The notes under the pieces are model-generated. The model was not told the DNA's origin and ran no database searches. It was given only the letters and a program-made list of their open reading frames with translations. The position numbers and the translations under genes are program-made. From Methanosarcinales archaeon (lineage in GTDB: Archaea > Halobacteriota > Methanosarcinia > Methanosarcinales > Methanocomedenaceae), in contig JAIOQW010000305.1 of NCBI GenBank assembly GCA_021108405.1, forward strand, positions 1-38,724: 38,724 bases of DNA, written 5' to 3'. The first letter of the stretch is position 1. Every line of letters begins with the position of its first letter. Below, piece by piece: positions 485-32,113 of the stretch.

Positions 485-759
485 TAGTATATCGAGGCTG
501 TCCCATAATTGCTTTTGGTACTAAAAATTCGGCTTCTTTTTGGATTTACAGCCCTATTTTCCTTTCTTTTTATTCCACTTTTGGATTGTTGGACAGCCTC
601 TATCAAGTATAACTTGATATATCGAAAATGTTCACTCCGTTCACATTTCCTAATCTTCAGATTCTTCAAAGCTTCAGTCGAAGATTCTACGAATCTTCTA
701 ATCCTCCATTCCTCTGGAATGTCGGTCAAGAAAATCCGAGCGATAGCGAGGATTTTGTT
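485..759 (-). repeat. modular hairpin repeat, copy 1 (interrupted by MITE)
   Basis: This is an essentially complete copy read on the minus strand. In order from 759 downward it has the AAAATCC/GGATTTT hairpin, the GAATGTCGG region, the GAAGATTC/GAATCTTC hairpin, a degenerate GCTT hairpin, the AAAATG/CATTTT hairpin and the TATCAAG/CTTGATA palindrome. The last module is split by a 107-bp insertion at 494-600. In the first hairpin the inner pairs are GC/GC where copies 2, 3 and 5 have CC/GG. Confidence 0.9.
494..600. mobile_element. 107-bp MITE-like insertion with 10-bp inverted ends and TATC duplication
   Basis: The ends are perfect inverted repeats, GAGGCTGTCC at 494-503 and GGACAGCCTC at 591-600. 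The bases TATC stand directly on both sides (490-493 and 601-604). Removing the insertion and one TATC rebuilds the palindromic end of the surrounding hairpin repeat exactly as it appears in copy 3. The element has no room for a transposase, so it is a non-autonomous element or the remnant of an insertion sequence. GAGGCTGTCC-type ends occur in some DDE-transposase IS families, but I cannot fix the family. Confidence 0.85.
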
Positions 760-815
760 ACTTTATTCCAAATACATCAGTAAACGATATCAGACACCAA
801 TTACAAAGCTTGACC

Positions 816-917
816 TTATTTGATCTTTTTCAAAAGGTAAGCCACTACCAGAAGCATCGCTACTGCAAATAGCATCTCAAATCCAGGTATGTCTATTATA
901 ATATTAAGATCTCCCCA
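816..917 (-). pseudogene. relic 3' end of a PGF-CTERM surface protein gene
   Basis: The minus strand reads a 33-codon open frame ending at TAA (816-818). It contains Ile-Pro-Gly-Phe-Glu, then a hydrophobic span of about 15 residues rich in Leu, Val and Ala, then a Lys-Lys-Ile-Lys end. That is the layout of the PGF-CTERM signal used by archaeal S-layer and secreted proteins for processing and lipid anchoring by an archaeosortase. An in-frame TAA at 918-920 and the lack of a start codon show that no intact gene precedes it. I read it as the surviving tail of a deleted or rearranged gene. Confidence 0.6.
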
Positions 918-982
918 TTTATGCCTTGTAATTTATATAAGACCAATTATTTATAGTTATTACACATTAAAATACTTTTTTA

Positions 983-1025
983 TAGTATATCAAGTATAAA
1001 TTAACCCGACCAAAGGTAGGAATTT
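983..1025 (-). repeat. modular hairpin repeat, reduced copy 8
   Basis: Read on the minus strand this has only the first hairpin, in a diverged form (TACC-TTT-GGTC core), followed by the half-palindrome TATACTTGATATACTATA. It resembles the reduced copy at 12,046. A 20-base motif beginning GGTATCCACT follows at 1,047 and recurs near copy 9 at 32,113. Confidence 0.6.
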
Positions 1026-1080
1026 ATTCATCATATTTATAAAAAAGGTATCCACTCCAAATCAGAGGACATAAATGATA

Positions 1081-1135
1081 GCCACAGAGAACACATAAGA
1101 TCACAGAGTTTTTCCTCTAAAGTGTCCTCTGTGGC
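1081..1135. repeat. ACAGAG-type inverted repeat upstream of clpB
   Basis: The arms 1,081-1,094 (GCCACAGAGAACAC) and 1,122-1,135 (GTGTCCTCTGTGGC) pair in 13 of 14 positions around a 27-base loop. A closely related and stronger hairpin lies just downstream of clpB at 3,893-3,967. ACAGAG-rich repeats of this kind recur in many prokaryotic genomes. Its position about 75 bp before the clpB start may affect the leader. Confidence 0.8.
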
Positions 1136-1209
1136 AGATAATATAAACAATGATTTATATAGATTTCATTCCTATACTTTTTGAAATGGATACAAAAAGA
1201 GGTATAATA

Positions 1210-3822
1210 ATGGATTTAAACAGTTTTACAGTAAAAGCACAGGAAGCTATTCAGGGCTCTGCTACAATTGCTGCAAGATATCATCACCAACAGATTGATT
1301 GTGAACATCTGCTGTTGGCATTACTCGAACAAGATGACGGACTTGCATTAAGACTTCTCGAGAAGATAGGGATATCTCCCGACATAATACAACAGGAACT
1401 GGAAAAACACCTATCTGAGCTGCCCCAGGTATCGAGTACAGGTAGCGACCAGGTATACATGACCCAGAATCTGAACAGGGTATTCGATACAGCAAAAAAA
1501 GAAGCAAGCCAGATGAAGGATGATTATATCAGTGTGGAACATCTGCTACTTGCACTGATCAAAGAAACAGATAGTATAAGCTCAAAGATACTCTTGAGTG
1601 CAGGTGTGACCAGAGATAATTTAACTCAGGCATTATCGCAAGTAAGAGGCGATAGACGGATCACATCACAGAACCCTGAAGAAACCTATGAATCACTAAA
1701 TAAATATGGGATCGATCTTACGGAACTTGCGTCGCAGGGGAAACTTGATCCTGTCATAGGCAGGGACCATGAAATCAGACGCACTATCGAAATACTCTCC
1801 CGCCGCAGGAAGAACAATCCTGTGCTTATAGGAGAGGCAGGTGTTGGTAAGACCGCAGTAGTGGAAGGGATATCACAGCGTATTGTAAACCGTGACGTAC
1901 CCGAGGCCATGAAAAATAAACACATTATTTCCCTTGATATGAGTGCATTAATTGCAGGTGCGAAGTTTCGGGGTGAGTTTGAAGAACGGTTAAAAGCCGT
2001 ACTTCAGGAAGTCGTTGATTCAGAAGGTGAGATCATCCTGTTCATTGATGAACTGCATACGGTTGTGGGTGCCGGGGCAACAGAAGGTGCAATGGATGCT
2101 GGTAATATCCTAAAACCCATGCTGGCCCGTGGTGAACTTCACTGCATAGGTGCAACCACGCTGAATGAATACCGTAAATATATTGAAAAAGATGCAGCCC
2201 TTGAGCGCAGGTTCATGTCTGTCCTGATAGACCAGCCAAACGTAGAGGATACCATCTCAATACTGCGCGGGCTCAAGGAACGCTATGAGGTACATCACGG
2301 AGTAAGGATCAAGGATACAGCACTGGTTGCAGCCGCTGTATTAAGCAATCGATATATATCAGACCGTTTTCTACCTGACAAAGCCATTGATCTTGTAGAT
2401 GAGGCTGCAGCCAAGATCAGGACCGAGATAGACAGTAAACCTACAGAGCTTGATAAAGTTGACCGCAAGATCATGCAACTTGAGATCGAACGCGAAGCAC
2501 TAAAAAAAGAGAAAGATCAGGCTTCAAAAGAGCGTCTTGAAAACATTCAAAAGGAACTTGCGGATATTCGGGCCGAATCTGATGCCATGCGCGCACAATG
2601 GCAGAATGAAAAAGAAACAATCCGGAAATTAAGTAAACTCAAACAGCAGATAGAAGATATAAAAACACAGATTGAACAGGAAGAACGCGATTACCAGCTT
2701 AATAAAGTAGAGAATCTTGATCATGCAGCAGAATTACGACACGGCATATTGCCTGACCTTGAGCGCCAGTATGCACAGGAGGAAGCCAATTTACAAGAAA
2801 AACAAACAGATATGCTGTTAAAAGAAGAGGTAGGAGAGGAAGATATTGCTGATGTAGTAAGTGAATGGACCGGTGTACCTGTAAACAAACTGATACAGGG
2901 AGAACGTGAGAAACTGACACATCTGGAAGATAACCTGCATAAACGCCTGATAGGACAGGATGAAGCAGTCCAGGCAGTATCTGATGCTGTGATCCGTGCT
3001 CATGCCGGTATTAAAGATCCGGGCAGACCCATAGGAAGCTTTATTTTCTTAGGACCGACGGGTGTTGGTAAGACCGAGCTTGCTAAAGCTTTAGCAGTTG
3101 AGCTCTTTGATGATGAGAATAACCTGATCCGTATTGATATGTCAGAATATATGGAGAAACATACGGTCTCGAGAATGATCGGTGCACCTCCGGGGTATAT
3201 CGGTCACGATGAAGGGGGACAGCTCACTGAAGCTATCAGGCGCAAGCCATATGCCGTGATACTCTTTGATGAGGTAGAGAAAGCACACAGTGATGTGTTT
3301 AACATCATGCTCCAGATACTGGATGATGGGCGTTTGACAGATTCACATGGACGGACTGTGGATTTTAAGAACACACTTATCATCATGACCTCAAATATAT
3401 GTGTGGATTATGCAGTTGAACAACTGGAGAAAGGCGGGGATTATAGCGAGATGCAGGCGATAGCCATAAATGAATTGAGTAAATATTTCAGACCTGAATT
3501 TTTAAACAGGATCGATGAAGTGGCAATCTTCCATCCATTGACAAGGGAACAGTTAGTCAAGATAGTTGATATCAAAGTAGTAGATCTGGTTGAAAGATTA
3601 AAACAACAAAGGATCGATCTTGAGATCATTGATGCTGCAAAGAAGTATCTTGGGGATGCAGGATATAGTGAAACGTATGGTGCACGGCCACTGCAACGTG
3701 TTATTCAAAATGAAGTTGAGACGAGGATTGCTAAACTCATTGTTGCCGGAGAGGTACTGGAAGGATCAAAGGTTGTTGTTGATGCGGATGAGCGTGGTAT
3801 TATTATATCTTCAGTCATATAA
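1210..3822 (+). CDS. clpB: ATP-dependent disaggregase ClpB
   Basis: Hsp100 protein-disaggregating chaperone of the cytoplasm, which works with DnaK to pull polypeptides out of aggregates. At 870 residues it has the family's usual length. In order it shows the double Clp N domain (1-145), AAA-1 with Walker A GEAGVGKT (208-215) and Walker B Asp-Glu at 280-281, a long charged coiled-coil middle domain (roughly 405-530), AAA-2 with Walker A GPTGVGKT (615-622) and Asp-Glu at 687-688, and the C-terminal D2-small domain with a GARPLQR motif. The middle domain separates ClpB from ClpA and ClpC. I chose the ATG at 1,210 because AGAGGT lies 6 bases before it and the protein then begins at the N domain; the open frame extends to 1,150. 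ClpB is patchy in archaea and usually regarded as bacterial in origin. Related hairpins flank the gene. Confidence 0.96.
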
Positions 3823-3892
3823 AAAGGAGATTAGGGGTTGTGATTATATGTATATACTACACTCCGCACGTGTAATTTGGAACCCTATATGA

Positions 3893-3967
3893 CTGCCACA
3901 GAGAGCACAGAGATAAGAGTTAGTGACGGAAAAGGCATCTCTGTGTTCTCTGTGCTCTCTGTGGCAG
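3893..3967. repeat. strong ACAGAG-type hairpin downstream of clpB
   Basis: The arms 3,893-3,912 and 3,948-3,967 are a perfect 20-bp inverted repeat (CTGCCACAGAGAGCACAGAG) with a 35-base loop. The right arm is part of a run of CTCTGTG units. It lies between the ends of two convergent genes, clpB and fae-hps, where it could stop transcription in both directions. It is related to the hairpin at 1,081-1,135. Confidence 0.85.
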
Positions 3968-4004
3968 AAAGTCATAAAAAACAGATATGGTTTAGTATAT
4001 AGTA

Positions 4005-5198
4005 CTAAAAATCAGTCATAACCCTATATTGATCAATCTCAGCCTTCTGTAGATCCTCAAGGCATACCTCGGCTGCCAGCCTCACATCTTTTGCCTTGGT
4101 TATAGCCCTGCCAACAACCACAATATCAGCACCAGCCGTACATGCATCACTTACAGTCGCAGCATCTTTTTCCAGCTTGGCGATACCTCCTGCTACTGCT
4201 ACCAGTAATTTAGGAATGACCTTCTTCATTTCAGATATACTGCCCCATGCATGAGCAAGATTCTCTTCATCAATAGCCCTGTGCAACTCCACAATATCAG
4301 GTTTAATACTTAATTCCTTTAGCACTTTCACAGGATCAGGTACATTCAACATATCAATATATGCATAAATACCGGTCTTTTTTGCCTCTTCTATAGCCTT
4401 TTCCATAGTTGATATAGGTGCAAGTCCTGAGATCACTACAGCATCAGCCGTGGCATCTGCAACCATCCTGGCCTCCAGGTTCCCGGTATCCAGGGTCTTC
4501 AGATCAGCAACAATGAATGCATTAGGTCTGGCCTTACGCATCTGCTGTATTACATCTAGCCCATAGCGTTTGATCAAAGGCGTACCTGCCTCGATAATAA
4601 TGTGATCACTTATAGGTACCTGGTCAAGTACTTTGCGCACAAACTCCATATCCGGAATATCGATAGCAACCTGTAGATACGGAGGATCCCACAGCCTGGT
4701 TACATTGAATCCCATAACCGGATGCATAGTCCTGTCTTTCTCTTTTAATACAGTATCAACATCAGGGAATGATTCCATCGCTCTTTGGACAGCCAGTTTG
4801 GTAGCACCGTAATTATATCTATATATCCTATCATAATCCCTGGCCTCAGGGTGAATGAATACACTGGCAACCACTACTAAATCTTCTGCCTGTTCTTTTG
4901 GTATTACCCCATCATCCATGGCATCTGCAACAGCCCGGGATACTGCTGTCTGGGCAGGGCCGAATATCCTGGCCGCATCTTCCATATTCTGTACTGTTAC
5001 CTTGGGTATGATAAGTGTTGCCGGCTTTGTTAACAGATTGGGCCGAATCACAGAAAGAAGCGGTGTATGTCCTGCGCTAAGCTGAGTGAACCCGGTAGCA
5101 AATGCCTGCCCGGCAGGGCCGTTCTTGTCTCCGATAATTATATCAACATGTGCGAGTTCAGGTTCCTCGCCAATAAGTGCTTCTCCGATCAATAACAA
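4005..5198 (-). CDS. fae-hps: bifunctional formaldehyde-activating enzyme / 3-hexulose-6-phosphate synthase
   Basis: Fusion of two enzymes. The N-terminal Fae half (about 1-165) condenses formaldehyde with tetrahydromethanopterin; the conserved His17 is in the AHVD motif and a GDKNGPAG loop follows. The C-terminal Hps half (about 175-390) is a TIM barrel with [10 protein letters not shown] and VADLKT motifs and interconverts ribulose-5-phosphate plus formaldehyde with hexulose-6-phosphate. In methanogens the pair runs backward to make ribulose-5-phosphate for nucleotides while Fae traps the formaldehyde released. At 397 residues it matches known Fae-Hps fusions. The start is a TTG at 5,196-5,198 with GAGGTG about 9 bases upstream. 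It is divergent from the LeuC/HacA gene across 128 bp; a TTAAATAC element on the minus strand at 5,236-5,243 may be its TATA box. Confidence 0.96.
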
Positions 5199-5326
5199 TA
5201 TCTTTACACCTCAATGGGTCATTAACAACGATACAGTATTTAAGGATACCGTGAATTGCGAATTATCATTTATATCATTTACTTTTCATTACCTTTATTA
5301 CTTCATGCCTCTTATAGAACAATTCT

Positions 5327-6601
5327 ATGACCTCTAATAATCTGACACTCACCGAAAAGATTTTCTCAAAAGCAGCTAACAAACCTGTTCGCTCGGGAGA
5401 TTTCGTTATGGCATCCATAGACTGTGCAATGACCCATGACATCACGGGGCCACTTGCAGTCCAGGGTTTTAATGAAATAATGAAAGACAAAACTGATCCG
5501 AAGGTTTGGGACCCTGATAAGATCGTCATACTCTTTGACCATCAAGTACCTGCAGATTCTCTTAATGCAGCAGCTAACCATATCATGCTTAGACAGTTCG
5601 CTAAGGAGCAAGGTATTACTAACTATGATATTTTCGAAGGAGTATGTCATCAGGTAGTTCCTGAAAAAGGATGGGTCAAACCAGGAAACCTGGTGGTGGG
5701 CAGTGATAGTCATACCTGTGCCTATGGGTCACTTGGAGCATTCTCCACAGGGATTGGCAGTACTGATATGGCTGCAGTATTTGCCACCGGAAAACTCTGG
5801 TTTAAAGTACCCGGGACTATCAGGTTCGAAGTAAAGGGGAAACTGCCTGAGCATGTATATAGCAAAGATATCATTCTGCATATGATAGGAGATGTTGGGG
5901 CTGACGGTGCAATGTATATGACAGCCCAATACGGCGGCGAAACAATCAAAAACCTTGACATATCCCAACGTATGACCATAAGCAACATGGCTATAGAAAT
6001 GGGAGCTAAAGCGGGTATTATTGAAGCCGATGAGACCACACAGAAGTATTTGGAAGAACGCACTTCCTTTACACCGGACCCATACTGGATAAGCGATGAA
6101 GACTGTGAATATGAACAGTATCGTGAATATGATATATCAGACTTACCTCCCCAGGTGGCATGTCCACATAATGTGGATAATGTAAAACCAATTGAAGATG
6201 TGGAAGGTACCAGGATCGATCAGGTACTGGTAGGTTCATGTACCAACGGAAGATTTGAGGATATCAAGATCGTTGCTGACATTATGGGAAATGAACCGGT
6301 TGCACAAGGTGTGCGACTACTGATCATCCCGGCATCCCGTACAGAATATTTAAAAGTTCTGCGTGCAGGGCTGATCGAACAGTTCATGGAAGCCGGAGCT
6401 ATTGTTGAGAGCCCTTGCTGCGGACCGTGTATGGGAGGCAGTTTTGGTCTGCTTGGTGATGGTGAGGTAGGTCTTGCTACATCTAACCGCAACTTCCAGG
6501 GCCGGCAGGGCAGTGCCAATGCATTTGTATATCTCTCATCACCTGCCACGGCTGCAGCCTCTGCCTTAACAGGCGAGATAACAGATCCAAGGAAATCCTA
6601 G
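5327..6601 (+). CDS. aconitase-family dehydratase large subunit (homoaconitase / isopropylmalate isomerase)
   Basis: Large [4Fe-4S] subunit of a LeuC/HacA-type hydro-lyase. Cluster ligands are Cys305 in VGSCTNGR and Cys365 and Cys368 in [16 protein letters not shown] and the IFDH-like FDHQ motif form the active site. Length (424) and domains fit archaeal LeuC/HacA. Methanogens have two paralogues, one for leucine synthesis (3-isopropylmalate) and one (HacA) for the 2-oxosuberate chain of coenzyme B; the sequence alone does not say which this is. The swivel-domain small subunit that completes the enzyme is not in the window, so it must be encoded elsewhere. The ATG at 5,327 has no strong Shine-Dalgarno sequence; TTTATATC at 5,269-5,276 is a possible TATA box. 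Confidence 0.9.
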
Positions 6602-6639
6602 GAATGATCAGATCTGTTCATGCCCGGGAGAAAATGTAG

Positions 6640-6792
6640 AACAAAATCCTCCCTCCGGTCGGATTTTCTTGACCGACATTCAAGAGGAATAGAGGATTAG
6701 AAGATTTGCAGAATCTTCGCCTGAGGCTCTCAAAAGAGCCGAAGATTAGAAAATACGAAGTATTTTCGATTCAAGTTATACTTGATATACTA
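6640..6792 (+). repeat. modular hairpin repeat, copy 2 (complete)
   Basis: Complete plus-strand copy. Hairpins in order: AAAATCC/GGATTTT, ATTC/GAAT, GAAGATT/AATCTTC, GGCTCT/AGAGCC, AAAATAC/GTATTTT, and the end palindrome. The fifth stem is AAAATAC-GAA-GTATTTT here but AAAATG/CATTTT in other copies, so both arms changed together. The copy ends 15 bases before the aminopeptidase ATG. Confidence 0.92.
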
Positions 6793-6807
6793 CAGGAAGT
6801 AATAATT

Positions 6808-7743
6808 ATGACATTGAAAGAAAGTACAAAGACGATTCTAAAAACCTGTATGGGTGTTCTGCCTAAAGAGTCTGTATTGATCATTACTGATACTGCCACA
6901 CATCCATCCATAGGACTGGAGCTTTATAATACAGCAAAGCAGATGGGGTGTGAGGTATTATTAATGACCATGGAACCAAGGGATCATCACGCCCAGGAGC
7001 CCCCCAAAGCTGTTGCAGAAGCAATGAAGGCTGTGGATGTACTATTAGTACCTACTAGCAAATCCCTGACCCATACCCAGGCAAGACTGGCCGCTAATAA
7101 ATCAGGAGTCCGTATCGCTACCATGCCAGGGATCAGTATTGAGATGATGGAATCAGGAGGCATTACGGCTGATTATCTTACTATAAAGGATACTACGTTC
7201 AATCTTAGGAAGAAACTTGAAAAAGTGAAAGAGATCCGAATAGTCACTGATCCTGGCACCGATATAATTCTTAATGTTGAAGGATGTGACTGGCATGAGG
7301 ACCATGGTATCTGCCATAAGGCAGGTTCATCTACTAACCTACCTGCCGGAGAGGTCTTTGTTGCACCGAAAAATGCGCAAGGGGTTTTTGTAGTAGACGG
7401 TTCCATGGGCGGATTGGGGATGCTGGATTCACCGTTGACAATTATAGTGAAAAATGGAAAAGCTGTCGATTTCACAGGGCCCAGGGCTGAAGAACTGCGT
7501 TATATGCTTGATAATGTAGGACCATTAGCACGCAATCTGGCAGAACTTGGTATTGGCGCAAATCCGGCAGCACATCTTATTGGAAATATTCTAGAAGATG
7601 AAAAGGTAGCAGGTACAGTCCACATTGCACTGGGTGACAACAGTACATTCGGCGGTAATGTGATTGTGGGCATTCATCTTGATGGTATTATAACAAAACC
7701 CAGGGTGTTCATAGATGGTGAATTATTAACACTCCCTGCTTAA
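6808..7743 (+). CDS. M29-type metalloaminopeptidase (leucyl aminopeptidase)
   Basis: A 311-residue cytoplasmic peptidase of the thermophilic M29 type, which removes N-terminal residues using two divalent metal ions. Visible family motifs are LPAGEVFVAP with the conserved Glu (about residue 190), HIALGDN with a following Gly-Gly (about 272-282), and the IHLDG segment near the end. It is at the short end for M29, as archaeal members tend to be. The ATG at 6,808 is chosen because GGAAG lies 8 bases before it; the frame runs further upstream only through repeat copy 2, whose codons are not protein-like. Repeat copies stand on both sides, so it is probably a single-gene unit. Confidence 0.88.
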   Translation: MTLKESTKTILKTCMGVLPKESVLIITDTATHPSIGLELYNTAKQMGCEVLLMTMEPRDHHAQEPPKAVAEAMKAVDVLLVPTSKSLTHTQARLAANKSGVRIATMPGISIEMMESGGITADYLTIKDTTFNLRKKLEKVKEIRIVTDPGTDIILNVEGCDWHEDHGICHKAGSSTNLPAGEVFVAPKNAQGVFVVDGSMGGLGMLDSPLTIIVKNGKAVDFTGPRAEELRYMLDNVGPLARNLAELGIGANPAAHLIGNILEDEKVAGTVHIALGDNSTFGGNVIVGIHLDGIITKPRVFIDGELLTLPA

Positions 7744-7832
7744 TGATCTTATATCAGGGAGGTTTTGCAGTACATAAATAGATATAAATATAGATATAGA
7801 CTAAGTTTTATTATTATTGTGAGTATAATATG

Positions 7833-7995
7833 AACAAAATCCTCCCTTCGGTCGGATTTTATTGACCGACATTCCGGAGGAATGGTGGATTAGAAGATTC
7901 GTAGAATCTTCGTCTGAAGCTTCGAAGAAGCCGAAGATTAGAAAATGTGAACGGAATGAGCATTTTCGATATATCAAGTTATACTTGATATACTA
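7833..7995 (+). repeat. modular hairpin repeat, copy 3 (complete)
   Basis: Complete plus-strand copy filling most of the 304-bp gap between the aminopeptidase and dacZ. The third hairpin is GAAGATTC-GTA-GAATCTTC at 7,893-7,911. The fourth stem is GCTTC-GAA-GAAGC, where copies 2 and 5 have GGCTCTT/AAGAGCC. It ends with TATCAAGTTATACTTGATA and TACTA, about 50 bases before the dacZ start. Confidence 0.92.
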
Positions 7996-8047
7996 ACATA
8001 ATTATTATTGTACCTAATATTAATATATATACGCAGGGGAAATTGTA

Positions 8048-8938
8048 ATGGTAGATAAGACTTTAATTATCCGGACAGCCACAAATATCGCACAGGAGAT
8101 CTCAGCCTGTGCAATCATCATTATGTCAGCTGATCTATCACTTAATATTGATACCAGCATTCCAGTCCTTATGGCTTCCCCGACAGCTATGATGATGGCA
8201 GGTCCCATTTTAGAGGGAGATGATCTCGATAATGGAAAGGGTCCGGCGCAAAGATTACAAAACCTGTCAAATATATTATACCGCAAAGCTTCATCAGGAT
8301 CTGAATATATTATAGACGCTTCAGCAGCAGCTTTTATTAAGAATTTACTTGAAGGAGATAGAGTTGTAGGCATAGTCTCATATGAGGGAACAACCAGTAT
8401 CGTGATACATGATCTAAAGGACAATCATATAGTAGAAGAATTAAAAGTATGTTCGGAAATGATCGATCTGGATATCCTGCAGTCAGTCCTCCTGATCGCT
8501 ATTGAACTTGGCACATATGGTCGTGAAGGAAGGTCAATTGGTACTGCCTTTATTATCGGAGATACAAAAGAAGTAATGAAGCGGTCCCACCAGTTAGTAT
8601 TGAATCCTTTTTCAGGTCATCCTGAAAAAGAACGTAATATCCGTGACACAATAAGATGGGAAACAGTGAAAGAGTTTTCTCAACTTGATGGAGTGTTCAT
8701 ATTGGACAGTGAAGGTTTTTTGATTGCGGCTGGACGTTATCTTGATATAGACGCAAGGGATGTAGAGACAGTTAAAGGACTGGGAGGACGGCATGCATCT
8801 GCTGCAGCAATCACCCGGGAGACTGAGACTGTAGCAGTAACAGTGTCTGAAAGTGATGGCGCGATAAGAATATATAGGGATGGTATCCAGATACTTGAGA
8901 TTAATCCAAGATCGTTTGAAGTGTCTTTATTAACATAA
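8048..8938 (+). CDS. dacZ: diadenylate cyclase DacZ
   Basis: Makes the second messenger cyclic di-AMP from two ATP. The C-terminal half is the DisA_N catalytic domain, with the DGx motif (Asp214-Gly215-Val216, where bacterial enzymes usually have DGA) and the RHx motif (Arg248-His249) in GGRHASAAAITRET. The N-terminal half (1 to about 175) is the alpha/beta pyruvate-kinase-C-like domain typical of archaeal DacZ rather than bacterial CdaA or DisA. At 296 residues it fits archaeal DacZ. AGGGGA at 8,036-8,041 precedes the ATG at 8,048. In haloarchaea DacZ is essential and its product helps control osmotic balance. A lipoprotein gene follows after 19 bp, probably in the same transcript. Confidence 0.9.
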   Translation: MVDKTLIIRTATNIAQEISACAIIIMSADLSLNIDTSIPVLMASPTAMMMAGPILEGDDLDNGKGPAQRLQNLSNILYRKASSGSEYIIDASAAAFIKNLLEGDRVVGIVSYEGTTSIVIHDLKDNHIVEELKVCSEMIDLDILQSVLLIAIELGTYGREGRSIGTAFIIGDTKEVMKRSHQLVLNPFSGHPEKERNIRDTIRWETVKEFSQLDGVFILDSEGFLIAAGRYLDIDARDVETVKGLGGRHASAAAITRETETVAVTVSESDGAIRIYRDGIQILEINPRSFEVSLLT

Positions 8939-8957
8939 AGCCTGGTGTTATTTTATT

Positions 8958-9770: not shown

Positions 9771-9789
9771 ATCCTTCTTTACTCTATGA

Positions 9790-11801: not shown

Positions 11802-12045
11802 TCAATATCAGTCCATGTCAAAATTGGATAATAATATAGGTTATCCGGAAACAAATAGTTTTCGTGTCGTATATGATTTTTTTTCCGGACTTTTATTTTA
11901 AGGTATTAAGCCTTTACCCGCCTGCCTTATATTTTGCCATATGCACAACTGATGATTGTTATGTGAGATATATTCTTATAAAATATATACAGTAAAAAAT
12001 GCATGTATACTTTCCGATATGTAAAAAAAGAAATAGATAAGAATT
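11802..12045. other. intergenic stretch upstream of the AAA ATPase gene, promoter region
   Basis: No gene seen. The stretch is AT-rich and holds the promoter region of the minus-strand ATPase/metallohydrolase pair. It leads into repeat copy 4, which stands between the UPF0058 gene and this promoter. Confidence 0.4.
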
Positions 12046-12102
12046 CAATCCTCCTTTTTGGTCGGATTTTTTTGAGTATATCGAGTTATATAAGATATAC
12101 TA
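12046..12102 (+). repeat. modular hairpin repeat, reduced copy 4
   Basis: Only the first hairpin (AATCC-TCC-TTTTT-GGTC-GGATT) and a diverged end palindrome remain; the four middle hairpins are absent. A perfect 9-bp inverted repeat, GAATTCAAT at 12,041-12,049 and ATTGAATTC at 12,111-12,119, encloses the unit. Confidence 0.75.
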
Positions 12103-12159
12103 CCAGAAGAATTGAATTCATTATCGATTATTCAAATTTAATTTTTTTAAATTATTTTT

Positions 12160-12438: not shown

Positions 12439-12614
12439 ATTCCCATCCTCCAACAGTAGCGGGTTTGATGAATAGTGTTCGTTAATTTTCGATCACATAT
12501 TCACATATCTATAATTTTTTCATTACTTCAACTTAAAAAAGGGTTTTGTAGGAATGGTATTTCCTATCATCCAACCTTAAATTTTTCTATTTAATCTTAA
12601 CGATTTATCTTATC

Positions 12615-13731: not shown

Positions 13732-14100
13732 ATGATAGAAGATGAAATGTTTGACCTGGTAAGTCAACATAAGGACGGCATTCTTCAAAGCGTAGTCAGG
13801 AAGACATTGGAAATTGACAGTAAAAAATGTTCAAGGACCATTGCCAAATTAATGAAAAAACATTTGATACGCAGGGAGCCTGAACTGGCAAGTGGCAGGA
13901 ATACTTTTCGAATTTATTGTACGGAATTCACAGGCCCCAGTGATAAACATAAGTACTTCCTTGCCGGTGGTATGTTCAGTCCATGCACCGGATGTAATAT
14001 GGAATGTTATCATGAAACCTGTGTGCCCCTGGATGAATGGGTATGGGCCATTATTAAAGAAGCAAAGAACAAAATCCTCCCTTCGGTCGGATTTTCTTGA
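13732..14100 (+). CDS. winged-helix protein with a four-cysteine C-terminal cluster; 3' end made from a repeat
   Basis: A 122-residue protein. Residues 1-65 read as a winged helix-turn-helix: a DGILQSVVRKTLEID helix, then CSRTIAKLMKKHLIRREP as the recognition helix and the wing. The C-terminal part has C85-x2-C88-x3-C92-x4-C97, a likely metal or iron-sulfur site, so it may be a metal- or redox-responsive regulator. The partner Sm-like gene is 23 bp upstream. Repeat copy 5 begins at 14,068, so codons 113-122 (NKILPSVGFS) and the TGA stop are repeat sequence. The native end of the protein was probably shortly after Lys112. I do not recognise a named family. Confidence 0.75.
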   Translation: MIEDEMFDLVSQHKDGILQSVVRKTLEIDSKKCSRTIAKLMKKHLIRREPELASGRNTFRIYCTEFTGPSDKHKYFLAGGMFSPCTGCNMECYHETCVPLDEWVWAIIKEAKNKILPSVGFS

Positions 14101-14183
14101 CTGAGGCTCTTAAAAGAGCCGAAGATTAGAAAATGTGAACGGAGTGAGCATTTTTGATACATCAAGTTATACTTTATGTACTA
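14068..14183 (+). repeat. modular hairpin repeat, copy 5 (lacks hairpins 2 and 3)
   Basis: After the first hairpin, the sequence jumps from TTGACTGAGG straight to GGCTCTT/AAGAGCC, so the second and third hairpins of copies 2 and 3 are cleanly missing. The AAAATG/CATTTT hairpin and a diverged end palindrome follow. It lies between two convergent genes and overlaps the end of the first one. Confidence 0.9.
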
Positions 14184-16283: not shown

Positions 16284-16384
16284 AAGATTTGTAGAATCTT
16301 CGACTGAGGCTCTTAAAAGACCCGAAGATTAGAAAATGTGAACATAATGAGCATTTTCAATATACCAAGTTATTTGTTATACTA
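16284..16384 (+). repeat. modular hairpin repeat, copy 6 (lacks hairpins 1 and 2)
   Basis: It begins in the third hairpin (AAGATT/AATCTT), then has GGCTCTT/AAGACCC, AAAATG/CATTTT and a mutated end palindrome (TATACCAAG...TTATACTA). It stands between the divergent phosphatase and MFS genes and ends 40 bases before the MFS start. Confidence 0.85.
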
Positions 16385-16424: not shown

Positions 16425-17624
16425 ATGCCTGATACAGCAGTTCAATTTTCAAGCTGTAGAAACAGGATTGTGATAATCCTTTCTATTGGTCTGTTCATTG
16501 TTTTTACAGGAATTTTATCCTTGATCCCAATGCTGCCTGCAATTAGTAATGACCTCAACATCAATAAGACTATGCTGGGAGTGATCATGGGCTCATTTAT
16601 GGTATGTATGGCATTTCCACAGATACCCATAGGTGTACTTTCAGATAGATACGGAAGACGTCCATTCATTACGGGAGGTATATTGATATTCAGTTTTGGT
16701 CTTTTATTTTTCTCAAAAGCCGAATCAGGATCCCAAATGCTTATTGCCAGATCCTTATCAGGATTCGGGGCTGCTATGTTCTTCTCAACTGCATATACCA
16801 TTGTTAATGATATTTACAGTGCCAGGGAACGCGGCAAGGGAATGGGGATCATTAGTATGACAGTAGGACTGGGTACGGTGTGCGGATATATCCTGGGTGG
16901 TGTCGTGGGAGGATTGTTCGGATGGAGAGCGGTTTTCATATGGATGTTCTGGGCTTCATTATTAATAAGTGGAAGCACCCTGTTGCTGACAGAGACCAGC
17001 CCACGTACTCAAGAACATGATTTCGGGATCAAGAAAATGGCATCAGCTACCCTGGTTATATTTAGGGATAAAGCAATAGTATTAGCAAGTATAGTGAGTA
17101 TGCTGTGTGGTATAGCAGTAGTTGGGGCATCATATACTTTCTCATTCTTTGCCAGTGATATTGTGTCTCCTGTTGAAATGGGGTTCGTTTTTATTCCATA
17201 TGCCATTACCAGCAGTCTGGGGGCATCTATAACAGGATTTTTAAGCGATCGGATCGGACGTAAAAAACCACTTATCGTCATGACCATTTTAGGGGGATCT
17301 GCCCTTATTTTTTTTGCCTGTGTTACTCCTGGTCCTTTGATGATGGCGATAATTTTTGGGTTTGTAGGACTTAGTCTTGGACCAGTGGTAACCCTTACTA
17401 CCACAATACTGGCTGATGTGGTAGTAAGAAAAGATGTACGCATCCTGGGTTCTTCAATAGGTGCGTTTAATATGGTAAGGTGGACAGGGACAGCAGTTGG
17501 TCCTGTGATTGCAGGATACATTATTCAGATTACAGGAACCAGAATGAGTTTTTCGGTACTGGCATTATTCATTTTATTATCTTGTGTGATCAGTATCTTT
17601 ATCAGGGAGACTCTGGAAGAATAA
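16425..17624 (+). CDS. MFS transporter (drug/metabolite efflux type)
   Basis: A 399-residue inner-membrane protein with about 12 hydrophobic helices. The MFS signature GVLSDRYGRRP lies in the loop between helices 2 and 3 (about 69-79), and a second copy, GFLSDRIGRKKP, marks the start of the C-terminal half (about 293-304). Members of this class use the proton gradient to export small molecules; the substrate cannot be inferred. I chose the ATG at 16,425 since the open frame to 16,338 runs through repeat copy 6. Repeat copy 7 starts inside the TAA stop. No regulator lies nearby. Confidence 0.9.
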   Translation: MPDTAVQFSSCRNRIVIILSIGLFIVFTGILSLIPMLPAISNDLNINKTMLGVIMGSFMVCMAFPQIPIGVLSDRYGRRPFITGGILIFSFGLLFFSKAESGSQMLIARSLSGFGAAMFFSTAYTIVNDIYSARERGKGMGIISMTVGLGTVCGYILGGVVGGLFGWRAVFIWMFWASLLISGSTLLLTETSPRTQEHDFGIKKMASATLVIFRDKAIVLASIVSMLCGIAVVGASYTFSFFASDIVSPVEMGFVFIPYAITSSLGASITGFLSDRIGRKKPLIVMTILGGSALIFFACVTPGPLMMAIIFGFVGLSLGPVVTLTTTILADVVVRKDVRILGSSIGAFNMVRWTGTAVGPVIAGYIIQITGTRMSFSVLALFILLSCVISIFIRETLEE

Positions 17625-17678
17625 AATCCTCGCTAGCGCTCGGATTTTCTAGAGTATATTGTCCTAGATTATATACTA
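17623..17678 (+). repeat. modular hairpin repeat, reduced copy 7 at the MFS stop codon
   Basis: It begins with the last two bases of the MFS stop. The first hairpin has the GC/GC inner pairs (AAAATCC-TCGC-TAGC-GCTC-GGATTTT), as in copy 1. A diverged palindrome ending in ATACTA follows; hairpins 2-5 are missing. Its position suits a transcription stop for the MFS gene. Confidence 0.85.
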
Positions 17679-17831: not shown

Positions 17832-17938
17832 GGGCTCGTAGCTCAGACAGGCAGAGCACCTGGCTTTTAAAATGTAGAGTATATACTCATACATTTGAAG
17901 ATACCAGATGGTCGGGGGTTCAAATCCCTCCGAGCCCG
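17832..17938 (+). tRNA. tRNA-Lys (UUU) with a 33-nt intron
   Basis: Acceptor GGGCTCG (17,832-17,838) pairs with CGAGCCC (17,931-17,937); G is the discriminator and CC is encoded after it. The D arm is GCTC/GAGC, the T arm GGGGG-TTCAAAT-CCCTC. The anticodon loop is C-T-TTT-A-A, anticodon UUU at 17,866-17,868. The intron is 17,870-17,902, in the usual place after position 37. It makes a bulge-helix-bulge: CTTT (17,864-17,867) pairs with GAAG (17,897-17,900), with three-base bulges TAA and ATA cut between their second and third bases. The rest of the intron forms its own hairpin (AATGTA/TACATT enclosing GAGTA/TACTC). A 27-43 C-A mismatch in the anticodon stem is unusual. Confidence 0.95.
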
Positions 17939-21698: not shown

Positions 21699-21711
21699 AG
21701 GTGATATGTAA

Positions 21712-25511: not shown

Positions 25512-25552
25512 TAAGGCCTTGTTTGTATAAAAATTCAAATGGGATGAAATGT

Positions 25553-25843
25553 ATGGATATAGATCTTAATAAAGCATTAAGAAATGTAGTTAATAACGGA
25601 ACAGTACTAATCGGTTCCAAACGGACAATTAAAGCAGTAGACAATCAAGAGGTTAAGGTTGTGATACTATCTTCGGATTGTCCGAAAGACATTGAAGATA
25701 GAATGACCGGGAAAGTATCTATTATCAATTTTCCGGGAATAGGAATTGAATTGGGTACCATCTGCGATAAACCATTTGCGATTGCGGCTATGTCAGTTAT
25801 CGAACCAGGTGAATCCGATATAATGGCAGTAAAAATACAATAA
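25553..25843 (+). CDS. rpl30e: ribosomal protein L30e (eL30)
   Basis: A 96-residue large-subunit protein of the L7Ae/L30e RNA-binding fold, with the typical NNGTVLIGSKRTIKAV start and the FPGIGIELGTICDKPFAIAAMSV segment. I chose the ATG at 25,553 since the family starts at this MDIDLNKALR; upstream ATG (25,544) and TTG (25,523) are in frame but would add residues not seen in relatives. It stands in the standard position between rpoA'' and nusA. Confidence 0.93.
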   Translation: MDIDLNKALRNVVNNGTVLIGSKRTIKAVDNQEVKVVILSSDCPKDIEDRMTGKVSIINFPGIGIELGTICDKPFAIAAMSVIEPGESDIMAVKIQ

Positions 25844-25853
25844 AGGGATATAA

Positions 25854-26282
25854 TTGAGTGAAGTTAAGCTGAACACAAATGGAATACGGTATATAGCACT
25901 ATTTGATAAGTATACCGGAGCAACTGCCAAAGACTGCTTGATGGATGAAGAGAATAACAGAGTGATCTTTGTTGTAAAAACAGGAGATATGGGCCTTGCC
26001 ATAGGTAAAAATGGGGAACATATCACTAAACTTGTTAAAGACATTGGACGCCAGATTGAAGTTGTGGAATATAATGATGATCCGATCATTTTTATAAAAA
26101 ACTTAATGCAACCTGCGATTCCAACTAATGTCAAGATAATACATAAGGATGACAAGCGTATAGCTTATGTAGAAGTAAGAACTAAAGAGAAAGGTCTCGC
26201 TATAGGACGAAACGGAAAGAATATAAAAAAAGTTAAAATCCTTGCTAAGCGACATCATGATATAGATGATATTTCAATATAA
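25854..26282 (+). CDS. nusA: NusA-like transcription factor (archaeal NusA)
   Basis: A 142-residue protein made of two KH domains, with GxxG loops at IGKNGEH (about 50-56) and IGRNGKN (about 117-123). It corresponds to the RNA-binding core of bacterial NusA without its S1 and acidic domains, and is thought to bind RNA during elongation or termination. The start is a TTG at 25,854 with AAAGGGA 5 bases before. It is part of the rpo-str run, with 10 bp from rpl30e and 22 bp to rps12. Confidence 0.93.
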   Translation: MSEVKLNTNGIRYIALFDKYTGATAKDCLMDEENNRVIFVVKTGDMGLAIGKNGEHITKLVKDIGRQIEVVEYNDDPIIFIKNLMQPAIPTNVKIIHKDDKRIAYVEVRTKEKGLAIGRNGKNIKKVKILAKRHHDIDDISI

Positions 26283-26304
26283 AAAATAAAGGAAGTACTT
26301 TAAT

Positions 26305-26733
26305 ATGGGAAAAGGAAAATATGCAGCCCGTAAACTTATAAATAATAGAGATAAATTCAGATGGAGTGATAGCAGATTCTTAAGGCGAACACTCAGGCTT
26401 AACATTAAAGCTGACCCATTGAGCGGCGCTCCTATGGGAAGGGCTATCGTTCTTGAAAAAGTAGGTGTAGAAGCAAAGCAGCCGAATTCAGCTATAAGAA
26501 AATGTGTAAGGATCCAATTGATTAAAAATGGAAGACAGGTGACTGCATTTTGTCCAGGGGACGGGGCCATTAATTTTATAGATGAGCATGATGAAGTGAC
26601 TGTGGAGCGAATTGGTGGTCGTATGGGAGGCGCTAAGGGTGATATTCCCGGAGTCAGGTTCAAGGTTACTGCAGTAAATAATCTGAGTCTTAGAGAAATG
26701 GTGATCGGCCGCAAAGAAAAACCAATGAGGTAA
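26305..26733 (+). CDS. rps12: ribosomal protein S12 (uS12)
   Basis: A 142-residue small-subunit protein at the decoding centre. The hallmark [15 protein letters not shown] (about 56-70) and the late [10 protein letters not shown] segment are present. Length and sequence match the archaeal/eukaryotic S23e form. It precedes rps7 by 4 bp, in the classic str order S12, S7, EF-2, EF-1A. The ATG at 26,305 lies 10 bases after AGGAAG. Confidence 0.97.
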
Positions 26734-26737
26734 TAGT

Positions 26738-27298
26738 ATGTACAAATTATTTGACAAATGGGATTATTCTGAGATTCAAGTGGATGATATCAGTATGTCG
26801 AGATATATTAATGTCAAGCCTGTTATAGTGCCATATTCCGGAGGAAAACATGCGAAGAAAAAATTTAATAAGTCGAACCAAAATATTGTAGAAAGACTTA
26901 TTAATAAGATCATGCTAACCGAACAAAATACAGGTAAAAAAATGATGGCTTATAGGATTGTTGAAAATTCTTTTGATATTATTAATAAAAAAACAAAAGA
27001 GAATCCTATTCAGGTTCTGGTCAATGCCGTTATCAATGCCGGACCCAGAGAGGAAACTGTCAGGTTAAAATACGGGGGAATCGCAGTTCCCAAGGCAGTG
27101 GACTCAGCACCTCAGCGCAGGGTAGATATTGCATTGAAACTTATCGCTAATGGAGCACAAAAATCAGCATTCAAGAGTCGTCGATCGGTTGAAGAGGCGC
27201 TGGCAAATGAGATTATAGCGGCTGCCAATTATGATGTTAAATCTTATTCAATTAATAAAAAGGAAGGAAAAGAACGCGTGGCAAAGGCTGCAAGGTAG
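26738..27298 (+). CDS. rps7: ribosomal protein S7 (uS7)
   Basis: A 186-residue primary 16S rRNA-binding protein of the 30S head. Conserved segments include [29 protein letters not shown] and a late region [21 protein letters not shown]. It has the archaeal N-terminal extension. It follows rps12 by 4 bp and precedes fusA by 12 bp, so it is part of the same transcript. In bacteria S7 represses the str operon; no matching operator is obvious here. Confidence 0.97.
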
Positions 27299-27310
27299 TG
27301 AGGATATAAC

Positions 27311-29503
27311 ATGGGACGAAGAAAAAAAATGGTTGAGCGCGTTACAGTGCTCATGAATGAACCTGAAATGATACGAAATATCGGTATTGTGGCTCATATA
27401 GATCATGGTAAGACTACGTTAACTGATAATATCCTAGCAGGCGCAGGCATGATCTCAAAAGAACTTGCCGGGAGGCAGTTGTTCACTGATTCTGATGAAG
27501 AAGAACAGGAGAGAGGGATCACTATTGACAGTGCATGTGTTTCAATGGTACATGAATATAAGGATAAAGAATATCTTATTAATCTAATTGATACTCCAGG
27601 GCATGTTGATTTTGGTGGAGATGTTACCAGAGCAATGAGAGCTGTAGATGGTGCTGTGATTGTAATAGATGCTGTGGAAGGAACTATGCCACAAACTGAG
27701 ACTGTACTACGTCAGGCCCTTAAGGAACACGTTAAACCAGTGCTTTTTATCAATAAGGTTGACAGGCTCATTAATGAGTTACAGGTTGATCTTCAGGAAA
27801 TGCAGAACAGACTTGGTAAACTGATAGATCATGTGAATAAGCTTATCAAAGGTATGAATGAAGAAAAATATAAGGCAGGATGGCGAGTAGATGCTGCAAA
27901 CGGTACTGTTGCATTTGGTTCTGCATTATATAACTGGGCAATAAGTGTCCCTTTCATTGAGAAATCAGGTGTTGGATTCAAGGAAGTATATGATTACTGC
28001 CGCAAGGATGATATGAAGAGTCTGGGAGAAAAATGCCCACTCCATGAAGTGATGAATGATATGATCATACGGTTCTTACCCAGTCCTATTGATGCTCAGA
28101 AAGATAGAGTGGGTGTTATCTGGCACGGCGATAAGACTTTAAAAACAGGTAAAGACATGCTGGAGGCTAACCCAGATGGAGAACTTGCATTCATGGTCAC
28201 TGATATTTCTATGGATCCCCATGCAGGAGAAGTTTCTACTGGTAGGCTCTTTAGTGGTTCTATTAAACGTGGTATGGAAATTTATGTATCCGGAACTACA
28301 AATACTAACAGAGTTCAGCAGGTGGGAGTGTTCATGGGTCCGGAACGATTGGAAGTGGAAACGATCCCGGCAGGAAATATAGCTGCAGTTACCGGTATCA
28401 AGGATGCGTATGTAGGGGCTACCGTATCAACAATAGATGATATGGTCCCGTTTGAATCAATCAAACATGCCAGTGAACCTGTAGTCACTGTGGCAGTAGA
28501 AGCTAAACATATGAAAGATCTACCAAAACTGGTCGAAGTGCTCAGGCAGGTTGCTAAAGAGGATAATACTCTAAGGGTCAATATTAATGAAGAAACCGGA
28601 GAGCATCTAATGTCAGGAATGGGTGAGCTACATCTTGAGATCATAGGTCATAGAATCGAAAGAGATAAAGGAGTGGAGATCTCAACAAGTGCACCTCTTG
28701 TGGTATATAGAGAGACTGTGCAAAAACATGCCGGCCCAACTGAAGGTAAGTCTCCGAATAGACATAATAGGTTCTATATCGAAGTGGAACCATTAGATAA
28801 TGAAATTGTAGACCTTATCAAATCCGGTGAGGTATCTATGCGTATGCCTGAGCTGGAACGCAGGAACAAGTTCATGGAGACGGGAATGAAAAAAGATGAG
28901 GCAAAAGGTATTACCCAAATATATGAGTCAAATGTTATCTTTAATATGACAAAAGGTATTCAGTACCTGAACGAGACTATGGAGCTTATTATAGATGGGT
29001 TTGAAGAGGTAATGAAGGCCGGACCGTTGACAAGAGAGCCCTGTCAGGGAATCAAGGTTAAACTGGTGGATGCAAAACTTCACGAAGATGCAATACATAG
29101 AGGACCTGCTCAAGTGATACCTGCTGTTCGATCAGCGATCCATGCAGCTATGCTTATGGCAGATGATACTCTTCTGGAGCCGTATCAAAAAGTTTTCATC
29201 CAGGTACCTCAAAATAATATGGGTGGAGCTACCAGTGAGATCCAGGGTCGTAGAGGTGTTATCAGTGATATGACCCAGGAAGGTGACATGACTATTATTG
29301 AAAGTAAGGCACCTGTGGCAGAATTGTTTGGATTTGCCGGAGATATTAGATCAGCAACTGAAGGGAGGGCAATGTGGAGTACTGAATTCGCTGGATTTGA
29401 AACTCTACCTGCCAGTCTGTTAAAAGAGATCGTCACTCAGATACGTCAACGGAAAGGATTGAAACTGGAAATACCTAAACCCAGTGATTTTATCAGTCAG
29501 TGA
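27311..29503 (+). CDS. fusA: elongation factor 2 (EF-2)
   Basis: Translocase GTPase (730 residues) that moves tRNA and mRNA after peptide-bond formation. G1 is AHIDHGKT (about 28-35), G3 DTPGH, and G4 NKVD. The archaeal/eukaryotic signature is His596 in HRGPAQ, the residue that is modified to diphthamide and is the target of diphtheria-type toxins. The start [11 protein letters not shown] is the family's usual one. It is followed by tuf after 77 bp, where CTTAAAAG at 29,511-29,518 could be a promoter for tuf alone. Confidence 0.97.
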
Positions 29504-29580
29504 CACAAAGCTTAAAAGCATGAAAGTAATATGTACATAAAATCAATAGATAATAATAATAAAAATATGGAGGATTGAAA

Positions 29581-30849
29581 ATGGCAGAGAAACCGCATCT
29601 GAATCTTGCAGTAATCGGTCATATCGATCACGGGAAATCAACTCTTGTTGGTCGACTAATGTATGATACTGGTGCAATTGAACCGCACGTTATTGAAAAA
29701 TACAGAGAAGAAGCAAAAGCAAAAGGGAAGGAATCATTTGCTTTCGCATGGGTTATGGACTCTCTTAAAGAAGAGCGAGAAAGAGGTATAACGATTGATA
29801 TCGCACATCAACGTTTTGATACTGATAAATACTATTTTACCGTAGTGGACTGTCCGGGACACCGTGATTTTGTTAAGAACATGATCACCGGCGCATCACA
29901 GGCAGATGCTGCAATTCTTGTGGTATCAGGAAAGGATAGTGTTCAGGCACAGACAAAAGAGCATGTGTTCCTATCCAGGACCCTGGGAATCAATCAGTTG
30001 ATCATAGCAATCAATAAAATGGACGAGATCAACTATGATGAAGCAAAGTATGAAAAAGCAGTAGAAGATGTTAGTGTTTTATTAAAAATGGTTGGTTTTA
30101 AACCAGGTGATATTAATTTTATTCCAACATCTGCTTTTGAGGGAGATAATATAGCCTCACATAGTGATAACACTAAATGGTATAAAGGTCCTACTATTCT
30201 GGAATCACTGGATACTCTAAAAGAACCTGAAAAACCCACTAAACTGCCATTGCGTATCCCTGTACAGGACGCATATACTATCAGTGGTATCGGTACTGTT
30301 CCTGTTGGACGTGTGGAGACAGGTACAATGAAAAAAGGAGATAAGGTTATTTTCCAACCAGGTGGTACGACAGGTGAAGTAAAATCAATAGAGATGCATC
30401 ACGAGGAAGTACCGGAAGCAGTTCCTGGCGATAATATTGGCTGGAATGTTCGGGGTATTGGTAAGAATGATGTTCGAAGAGGTGATGTTTGCGGGCCGGC
30501 TGATAAGCCACCGACAGTAGCTGAAGAGTTTACTGCACAGATTGTTGTACTGCAACATCCGTCAGCAATTACCGCAGGATATACTCCCGTATTCCACTGC
30601 CATACAGCACAGGTAGCTTGTACATTAATTTCTCTTGATAAAAAACTTGACCCAAAAACAGGTGAGGTAAAAGAGGAAAATCCTTCATTTATAAAGACAG
30701 GGGATGCAGCTATTATAACTGTAAAACCTACTAGACCACTTGTTATTGAGAATGTGAAAGAGATCCCTCAGATGGGGCGCTTTGCTATCCGTGATATGGG
30801 ACAGACAGTCGCAGCTGGCATGGTTATTAGTATAAAGGCGAGACCTTGA
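29581..30849 (+). CDS. tuf: elongation factor 1-alpha (EF-1A)
   Basis: GTPase (422 residues) that delivers aminoacyl-tRNA to the ribosome. The P-loop is GHIDHGKST (13-21), followed by DCPGH and NKMD; domains 2 and 3 follow with GRVETG and the late [10 protein letters not shown] motif. The ATG at 29,581 has GGAGG 7 bases upstream; an in-frame TTG at 29,575 is less likely. A longer leader and a possible TATA element suggest that tuf has an extra promoter as well as read-through from fusA. Confidence 0.97.
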
Positions 30850-30862
30850 GTCTCTCCATTAT

Positions 30863-30871
30863 CTTTTTTTA
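30863..30871 (+). terminator. T-run after tuf, possible partial terminator
   Basis: A run of seven T lies about 20 bases after the tuf stop. Archaeal polymerase can stop at such runs without a hairpin. The rps10 gene starts 27 bases later, so this may reduce but not end transcription. Confidence 0.3.
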
Positions 30872-30897
30872 AAAAATTAATTTTGGAGTAATTATTA

Positions 30898-31209
30898 ATG
30901 GCACAAAAAGCAAGAATACGACTCTCAGGTACCAGTCCGGAAACACTGGATAAAGTATGTAACCAAATTAAGAGTATTGCGCAAAAAATCGGTGTAAATA
31001 TTTCTGGCCCTATACCTTTACCAACAAAAAAATTAGTTGTACCTGTTTTAAAGAGTCCTGATGGCGAAGGGACTTCTACATGGGATCACTGGGAAATGAG
31101 GGTTCATAAAAGACTTATTGACCTTGATTCTGATGAACGGGCATTGCGACAGCTTATGCGTGTTCAGGTTCCAAAGGATATCAGTATTGAGATTGTTTTG
31201 ACTTCTTAG
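30898..31209 (+). CDS. rps10: ribosomal protein S10 (uS10)
   Basis: A 103-residue small-subunit protein. The typical [20 protein letters not shown] start, the GPIPLPTKK loop that reaches into the 30S head, and the [12 protein letters not shown] segment are all present. It is the last gene of the str-type run, as in many euryarchaea. GGAG lies about 12 bases before the ATG. Its last 29 bases overlap the end of the convergent UbiV-like gene. Confidence 0.97.
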
Positions 31210-32062
31210 TTAGAGTTTCTATTATTTGTGGTAATTTTTCAGGTTCATACATATCAGCATTAACAATTATACGTTCTAATCCCTGAAATTCTCTACATTT
31301 ACTCTTCATAAAAATAATATTTCCCAGTAGATAGAGAGTTGGAAATATTTCTTTCATTTTTTGATCGGGTTGTGCAAATCCCGGTGGTGTACCTGATAGA
31401 TCAAACATATCTGCCAGTTGAAGTTTAATAAGTGTATTACACCTGGAAGTACAATCAGGTGGTTTTTCATTATAGAACCTGGAAGTGTGGCAGGAACGAG
31501 CATATGCAACGGCAATGAATTCCAAATGTGCAGCAGTTGGTAACCCAAGTGCAACCGCAGCTTTTACGGTATTTGATTCCATATCGGTTTCTATTGCTGA
31601 GATACCCAGACCGGTAATTAGATCAAATGTCCGGGTGTAATTCAGGTTTGTTTTAAGAAAAGCTTCTTTGATGATATCAGACTCATCTCTAAGTAGATGT
31701 TCAACCCATGGACAGGCCTCTGAAGTGTGTACAATTCCACGTCCTGCTGCAATTTGGTAAAAATTATTTGTTGAATTGCTGTTATGCAATGAATATAATA
31801 TCCCCATATCATTTACCACAAGTCTGATACTGGATGGTAGTGCCTTGATAAATTTTAGCATTTCTTCATAATGCTTCTGTGGGGTGATAGGAGTGATTAC
31901 TGATAAATGTTCTATGGTATTAGCTATTTTTCTTATTTGATCAAGTGTAGGAAGTTTGTATACACAACTTTCGCTACCTAATCCTATCTTCAAATTATAT
32001 ATGTCAGATAGATTTAGTATCTGATCTAATTTTGTAATGTCTGTAGTACGGATCTCAATCAT
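31181..32062 (-). CDS. UbiV-like / peptidase U32-type [4Fe-4S] protein, function unknown
   Basis: A 293-residue protein of the U32 TIM-barrel type. It has Cys33 in SESCVYK and then C191-x12-C204-x3-C208. This spacing matches that of UbiV, where C180-x12-C193-x3-C197 plus an early Cys hold a [4Fe-4S] cluster needed for oxygen-independent ubiquinone hydroxylation. Archaea do not make ubiquinone, so the role here must differ; RNA or cofactor hydroxylation is known for other U32 proteins. The start is ATG at 32,062, preceded closely by repeat copy 9. Its 3' end overlaps rps10 by 29 bp in convergent orientation. Confidence 0.65.
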
Positions 32063-32072
32063 GCTAATTCCA

Positions 32073-32113
32073 GTTAAGTATAACTTGATATATCAAAAAT
32101 GCTTCGTATTTAC
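32073..32113 (-). repeat. modular hairpin repeat, partial copy 9
   Basis: On the minus strand this has the AAAT...ATTTT hairpin in the short ACGAAGC form of copy 2 and the palindrome TATCAAGTTATACTTAA. It ends 10 bases before the UbiV-like start. On its other side the motif CGTATCTACTTCAAATCAG also occurs near copy 8. Confidence 0.75.

Follow-up and report, generated by a model that had tools for sequence, protein, structure and literature searches.

Insertion sequences IS608 and ISDra2 of the IS200/IS605 group have the target motifs TTAC or TTGAT, and IS91-type elements the target tetranucleotides GAAC/CAAG. Enzymes of the IS200/IS605 group bind subterminal hairpins, with cleavage set by the flanking target tetranucleotide and its equivalent at the right end, and one survey found archaeal Y1 enzymes to be of the IS200 type only (PMC6006769). 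In related Y1 enzymes, the choice of strand depends on loops and stem mismatches (PMC8266576). The palindrome-associated transposable elements (PATE) of Haloquadratum walsbyi, in which tnpA genes are mostly broken (PMC3119063), are the closest named category to the repeats described here. An earlier note on this DNA knew of no matching named family; the PATE category does fit by anatomy. No RNA family matched.

The window analysed here, a stretch of 38,724 nucleotides, comes from a 3.67-Mb draft genome (99% complete), and the nearest relative compared, ANME-2 cluster archaeon HR1, is close to it. The earlier note had reported at least nine copies or fragments, and all nine sets of coordinates hold copies of one repeat family (Table 1). 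The best core copies reached a covariance-model E of 5e-17 (439-kb sample) and full copies were 82–95% identical to each other by BLAST, placing the family far beyond chance. A 400-kb sample plus the window (439 kb) held 93 module clusters, of which 65 reached 45 nt or more; extrapolated from that sample, we estimate about 540–780 copies per genome; 504–511 candidates came from a first-look DNA search. ANME-2 genomes thus probably each contain several hundred copies of what appears to be an undescribed mobile element: we found no published description in the literature searched, which held little from subscription journals. Sixty of the 65 copies lay mostly outside predicted genes, every class of spacer was occupied, and orientation was split 21 to 12 with no clear bias to gene starts, gene ends or strand. 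A role as terminator or promoter was rejected for want of a clear positional or strand bias. Copies are indeed missing from the 13-kb rpo/str cluster, to which the note had attached meaning, but at the sampled density the probability of zero copies there is 0.06–0.15, before allowing for the cluster's few spacers, and the absence is not significant.

Table 1. Copies of the repeat family and associated features in the window (LE and RE, left and right ends).
Feature	Coordinates	Strand	Remarks
Composite copy	485..759	+, read LE(H6) to RE(H1)	H6 - H5inv - Z - Y - X - H1; interrupted at 494-600
Full H1-B-Y-B-H5-H6 part of composite 485..759	601-759	(-)	
Foreign 107-bp miniature inverted-repeat element	494..600	.	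10-bp inverted ends GAGGCTGTCC / GGACAGCCTC
Decayed two-hairpin core	983..1029	+	target-like CTTTTTTA in front
Full composite H1-X-Y-Z'-H5(short)-H6	6639..6792	-	H6 end = LE; HR1 orthologous site (G001:C112) empty
Reference full composite H1-X-Y-Z-H5-H6	7832..7995	-	HR1 same site: internally deleted H1-H6 copy, joint ATTTTC
Two-hairpin core LE + RE (H1-H6 only)	12047..12102	-	absent from 69 bp replacing the spacer in HR1
Composite H1-Z'-H5-H6	14067..14183	-	HR1 site cleanly empty (GAAGAAAA|TTGAAACAC)
Composite Y-Z'-H5-H6, RE (H1) side truncated	16284..16384	-	missing in HR1 along with ~110 bp adjoining
Two-hairpin core (H1-H6 only), H6 variant stem	17619..17678	-	HR1: longer array, interrupted near this point by another insertion
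Fragment of H6 + short H5	32076..32111	+	
Y1 (IS200-type) transposase pseudogene fragment	32252..32458	+	clade widespread in the class; neighbour of the element

The first copy, listed earlier as 485-759, is a genuine member split in its LE (H6) hairpin by an element unrelated to the family and flanked by a 4-bp duplication, TATC (490-493 and 601-604). Other small features lie in the window. At 1080-1135 and 3893-3967 lie two copies of another repeat family, with CCACAGAGA...TCTCTGTGG as its framework; the second contains a perfect 21-bp inverted repeat. Element copies in Methanothrix (L195) have similar sequence next to them. An inverted 29-bp repeat (TTTTTGAAATGGATAC; 1169-1197 and 36487-36515) is perhaps yet another short repeat, related sequence standing beside several fragments (L117:18330, L125:600). 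A 107-nt tRNA gene at 17832-17938, matched by Rfam and missed by ARAGORN, probably contains an intron.

The covariance-model search of related archaea that had been proposed covered 238 genomes of the class and detected the core in 32: every genome searched in the home family, some members of two further families in the order, and two Methanothrix genomes from another order. Some Methanosarcinaceae are among the hosts. The Methanothrix copies are near-identical, which suggests recent activity there. A viral, phage or plasmid source was considered, and none of the viral contigs, phages and plasmids searched contained the family. One copy lies on a contig binned as Desulfobacterales C00003106 (L295, MAXM01000101.1), perhaps mis-binned ANME DNA.

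The basic unit is a 61-bp element with two hairpins. On the top strand, the one used for the model, it consists of the target TTTTYTTR, the left hairpin, the linker CTCAAG, the right hairpin, and CTTG or GTTC. The left hairpin, preceded by NNTAG or TTG, has the stem AGTATATCAAG/CTTGATATACT and the loop TATAA, or a compensated variant; the right hairpin, preceded by CAAG, is AAAATCC-GA-CC-GAA-GG-GA-GGATTTT. There is no inverted repetition between the element ends, GAACAAAATCC... and ...GATATACTA, and no copy has a gene between its hairpins. Copies obey a strict grammar, H1-(B-Y)n-B-H5-H6, in which the H6 end is the left end, the H1 end the right end, and B is any of the interchangeable hairpins X, Z or Z'; in the plus orientation the reference copy at 7832-7995 runs H1, X, Y, Z, H5, H6. 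Typical copies measure 61, 116 or 165 bp, and the longest at least 205 bp. The fixed ordered set of at most six hairpins described earlier gives way on both counts: hairpins 2 and 4 can each be X, Z or Z', and arrays can be longer, with up to six B hairpins in HR1. Evolution by hairpin units, by contrast, is borne out by swapped modules and by homogeneous HR1 arrays. In these arrays (261–361 bp), three to five B-Y units are near-identical within an array and different between arrays; units are therefore homogenised within a copy. Two further subfamilies, one in genus g4 and one in the home genome, share the plan with the H5 module as right hairpin; the g4 form, a separate element, reads LE-linker-AAAATGC..GCATTTT-CTTG. 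Apparently solo, nearly palindromic H1 hairpins flanked by AACAAAATCC and GGATTTTGTTC were also seen (L117:12862-12908, L114:17772-17833), possibly single-hairpin mobile forms or deletion scars.

Mobility was evident from comparison with HR1, in which contig C112 is syntenic with the window from 4 to 18 kb at 86–94% identity. The sites at 6639 and 14067 are empty in HR1, with no target duplication at either; the HR1 copy at site 7832 has lost the part between H1 and H5 at a short microhomology, and from the spacers of 12047 and 16284 the element is gone together with some flanking DNA. The eight top-strand bases 5' of the element resemble TTTTYTTR, the insertion lying 3' of such a T-rich site. 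TTNTNN directly preceded 93 of 125 copies (23/29 own, 70/96 other), against 0–3 (own) and 1–14 (other) at shifted control offsets; the motif was derived from copies of the same kind as those on which it was tested, and the two host groups agree. One target, that at 6639, does not fit TTNT. Most copies in the home genus and g4 have the right end TTTTGTTC, and most copies elsewhere TTTTCTTG. Of the 125 copies, 14 begin exactly at the right end of another copy. At L104:3609-3839, three elements of different subfamilies form an exact head-to-tail tandem, the middle one belonging to a third subfamily with the right hairpin AAATGC..GCATTTT, and 61-bp cores in other genera sometimes stand in the same arrangement. 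An explicit insertion motif, together with sites at which HR1 and its relative are not alike, provides a testable insertion rule.

Conservation of structure among copies had been set as the test of the family, and the core proved to covary strongly across genera. Paired cells made up 90.5%, and the covariation score was 0.283; shuffles gave 0.091, and sliding no more than 0.061. Both core hairpins show compensatory changes: the TATAA loop is kept across genera while the surrounding stem varies, and the right hairpin retains its GA/GA mismatch and short loop while its pairs change (AAAATCC/GGATTTT versus AAAATGC/GCATTTT). In composite copies, 15 of 49 pairs had compensatory changes. Such changes, and tandem-GA, short-loop hairpins that would also be stable as RNA, confined to spacers, are what would be seen if the repeats were a structured RNA that was multiplied by ordinary duplication and retained for a function (as cis-regulator, terminator or small RNA). 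We nevertheless consider this unlikely. Presence and absence differ at syntenic sites, a target motif is conserved outside the folded part, copies have no clear gene-end, gene-start or orientation bias, and the GA/GA mark falls on different strands in H1 and in B/H5. No Rfam family was found in 6600-8050 even at E up to 1, and on the whole window at the gathering cut-off Rfam returned only a tRNA. Of the two substrates first envisaged, RNA or folded DNA, the latter is the likely one, given the compensatory changes and insertion at a fixed motif without duplication. Such copies should not be called regulatory RNA from compensatory changes alone; no host function is supported, and a selfish element is the best reading.

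We think it probable that the repeats are insertion elements without autonomy, dependent on a Y1-type (HUH) transposase supplied in trans, and that they are moved as folded single-stranded DNA, much as IS200/IS605 ends are. To judge by anatomy, their insertion logic closely matches IS200/IS605 single-strand transposition, with hairpin feet nearer the element ends than is usual in that group. After recognising the hairpins, the transposase would cleave behind TTNTNN in the donor flank and again behind this motif at the element's right end; the cut strand would then be joined 3' of a TTNTNN target, leaving no duplication. Since the target motif also closes the right end, a new copy could land directly behind an old one, which would yield head-to-tail tandems.

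The putative enzyme was sought among Y1 genes. No dedicated transposase for the family was found, and the 298 left ends scanned in draft genomes yielded no gene-bearing copy bounded by a left and a right end within 4 kb, which would have marked an autonomous element with these ends. Every Y1 gene found in the home genome, including that in the window, is fragmentary or broken. The IS to which these pseudogenes belong was rejected as parent because its left end (AATACTTTCA) and right hairpin (GGACTTAAGTCC) are not those of the element. A common Y1 clade occurred in 22 of the 32 genomes that bear the element and in 45 of the 206 that do not (uncorrected for kinship); as the enzyme in trans it was set aside, being enriched but not specific, with ends that differ from those of the element. 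At L032 and L037 the element abuts a truncated tnpA through an identical junction. Copies at contig ends in G236 were also dismissed as parents; they have one longer repeat in common, with identical flanks, that is not a transposon.

A domesticated TnpA-REP (RAYT) could instead have moved the repeats as REP/BIME- or REPIN-like elements. High copy number, intergenic position, mosaics, tandems, and hairpins that are strand-specific and keep their mismatches all recall such systems (PMC8266576), but the hairpin feet have no constant GTAG or CGTC, the hairpins are unlike each other and in direct rather than inverted order, no RAYT adjoins them, and Y1 searches in the home genome (G000) gave only IS200-type fragments near copies; this origin is improbable. 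HR1 has a longer Y1 protein (L079), with no adjoining element copy. Descent from IS91-type (Y2) rolling-circle elements would account for the H1 end, which on the plus strand reads GAAC or CAAG like IS91-type targets, and the home genome has one intact Y2 transposase. That tetranucleotide travels with the element, however, the variable target being at the other end, and Y2 was found in three of ten element-rich genomes searched and not in HR1 or six others, making such descent very improbable. A MITE of a DDE transposon with diverged ends, as high copy number, small size, lack of genes and empty sites might suggest, is scarcely credible and already contradicted by two ends that are not inverted repeats of each other and by the absence of target duplication at empty sites and in flanks.

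Under the preferred reading, folded single-stranded DNA moved in trans, the modular copies also become intelligible. The earlier note held that copies lose whole hairpins. A true deletion did occur at the HR1 orthologue of 7832-7995; for the most part the direction was probably the opposite, because other genera of the home family carry the two-hairpin core almost exclusively, which makes the core most likely the ancestral form and most internal hairpins later additions. The six-hairpin long form accordingly looks, from sequence, derived in the home genus; elsewhere, the genomes G006 and G011 have a few such copies, G011 being 6% contaminated, with a long copy that may be mis-binned. All composites have the same two junctions, H1-B (...TTTTCTTGA|CYGA, in some TTTTATTGA, B starting right behind TTTTCTTGA) and H5-H6 (...CATTTTCGA); a single nesting event, amplified afterwards, is therefore probable. 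On the opposite strand, H5 resembles the model's right hairpin (partial hits 31-57), and the GA/GA mismatch of B and H5 is on the strand opposite to that of H1. On its lower strand the core linker reads TTTTCTTGAG and carries TTTTCTTG; it contains the target motif, and so could have received a second unit in opposite orientation. At L100, a Z-H5-H6 copy without H1 lies directly behind TTTTTTAA; a standalone inverted unit is represented by one good copy.

The best reading of the long copies is that another two-hairpin unit, with B as its left hairpin and H5 or Y as its right, would have landed, inverted, in the linker between the hairpins of the first and was then tandemly multiplied. As the simplest account of the order of events, we infer one inverted B-H5 insertion between the core hairpins followed by tandem gain, exchange and loss: from the nested founder, tandem duplication, hairpin exchange and microhomology deletion would produce the modular copies of the window. 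This offers a concrete route from two-hairpin units to modular multi-hairpin repeats, a question open for mosaic repeats generally. We are doubtful of a further possibility, a self-nesting system in which the unit, carrying its target at the right end and inverted in the linker, would build and rewrite ordered arrays by single-strand insertion alone, with a transposase unlike the archaeal IS200-type.

Compared with known systems, the family resembles bacterial and archaeal MITEs in being small, gene-less, of high copy number and confined to spacers, but it has neither inverted ends nor duplication. It shares with bacterial REP, BIME and REPIN sequences hundreds of intergenic hairpins, conserved internal mismatches and mosaic clusters (PMC3116915, PMC3733652, PMC8266576), but lacks a GTAG/CGTC tag and a RAYT neighbour, and its hairpin pair is asymmetric. 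Like IS200/IS605 elements (IS608, ISDra2), it has two subterminal hairpins on one strand, no target duplication, and a target motif 5' of the left end that resembles the right-end motif; unlike them, it carries no tnpA or tnpB, and its target is TTTTYTTR. With PATE it has in common near-terminal palindromes without terminal inverted repeats, a short targeting sequence, no target duplication, no coding capacity, strain-specific insertions, deletions at short direct repeats and mostly broken host transposase genes. The 52-bp terminal-only forms of PATE are a further likeness, as are the small mobile repeats that target PATE palindromes, which the element at 494-600 within H6 recalls. The differences from PATE are that no related IS605-type transposon with this family's ends was found, that the palindrome starts 1–3 nt from the end, that extra hairpins form nested and tandem arrays, and that the hosts are methanotrophic and methanogenic archaea rather than haloarchaea. 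We regard the family as PATE-like, non-autonomous and probably single-strand-transposing, and as new in its nested modular form.
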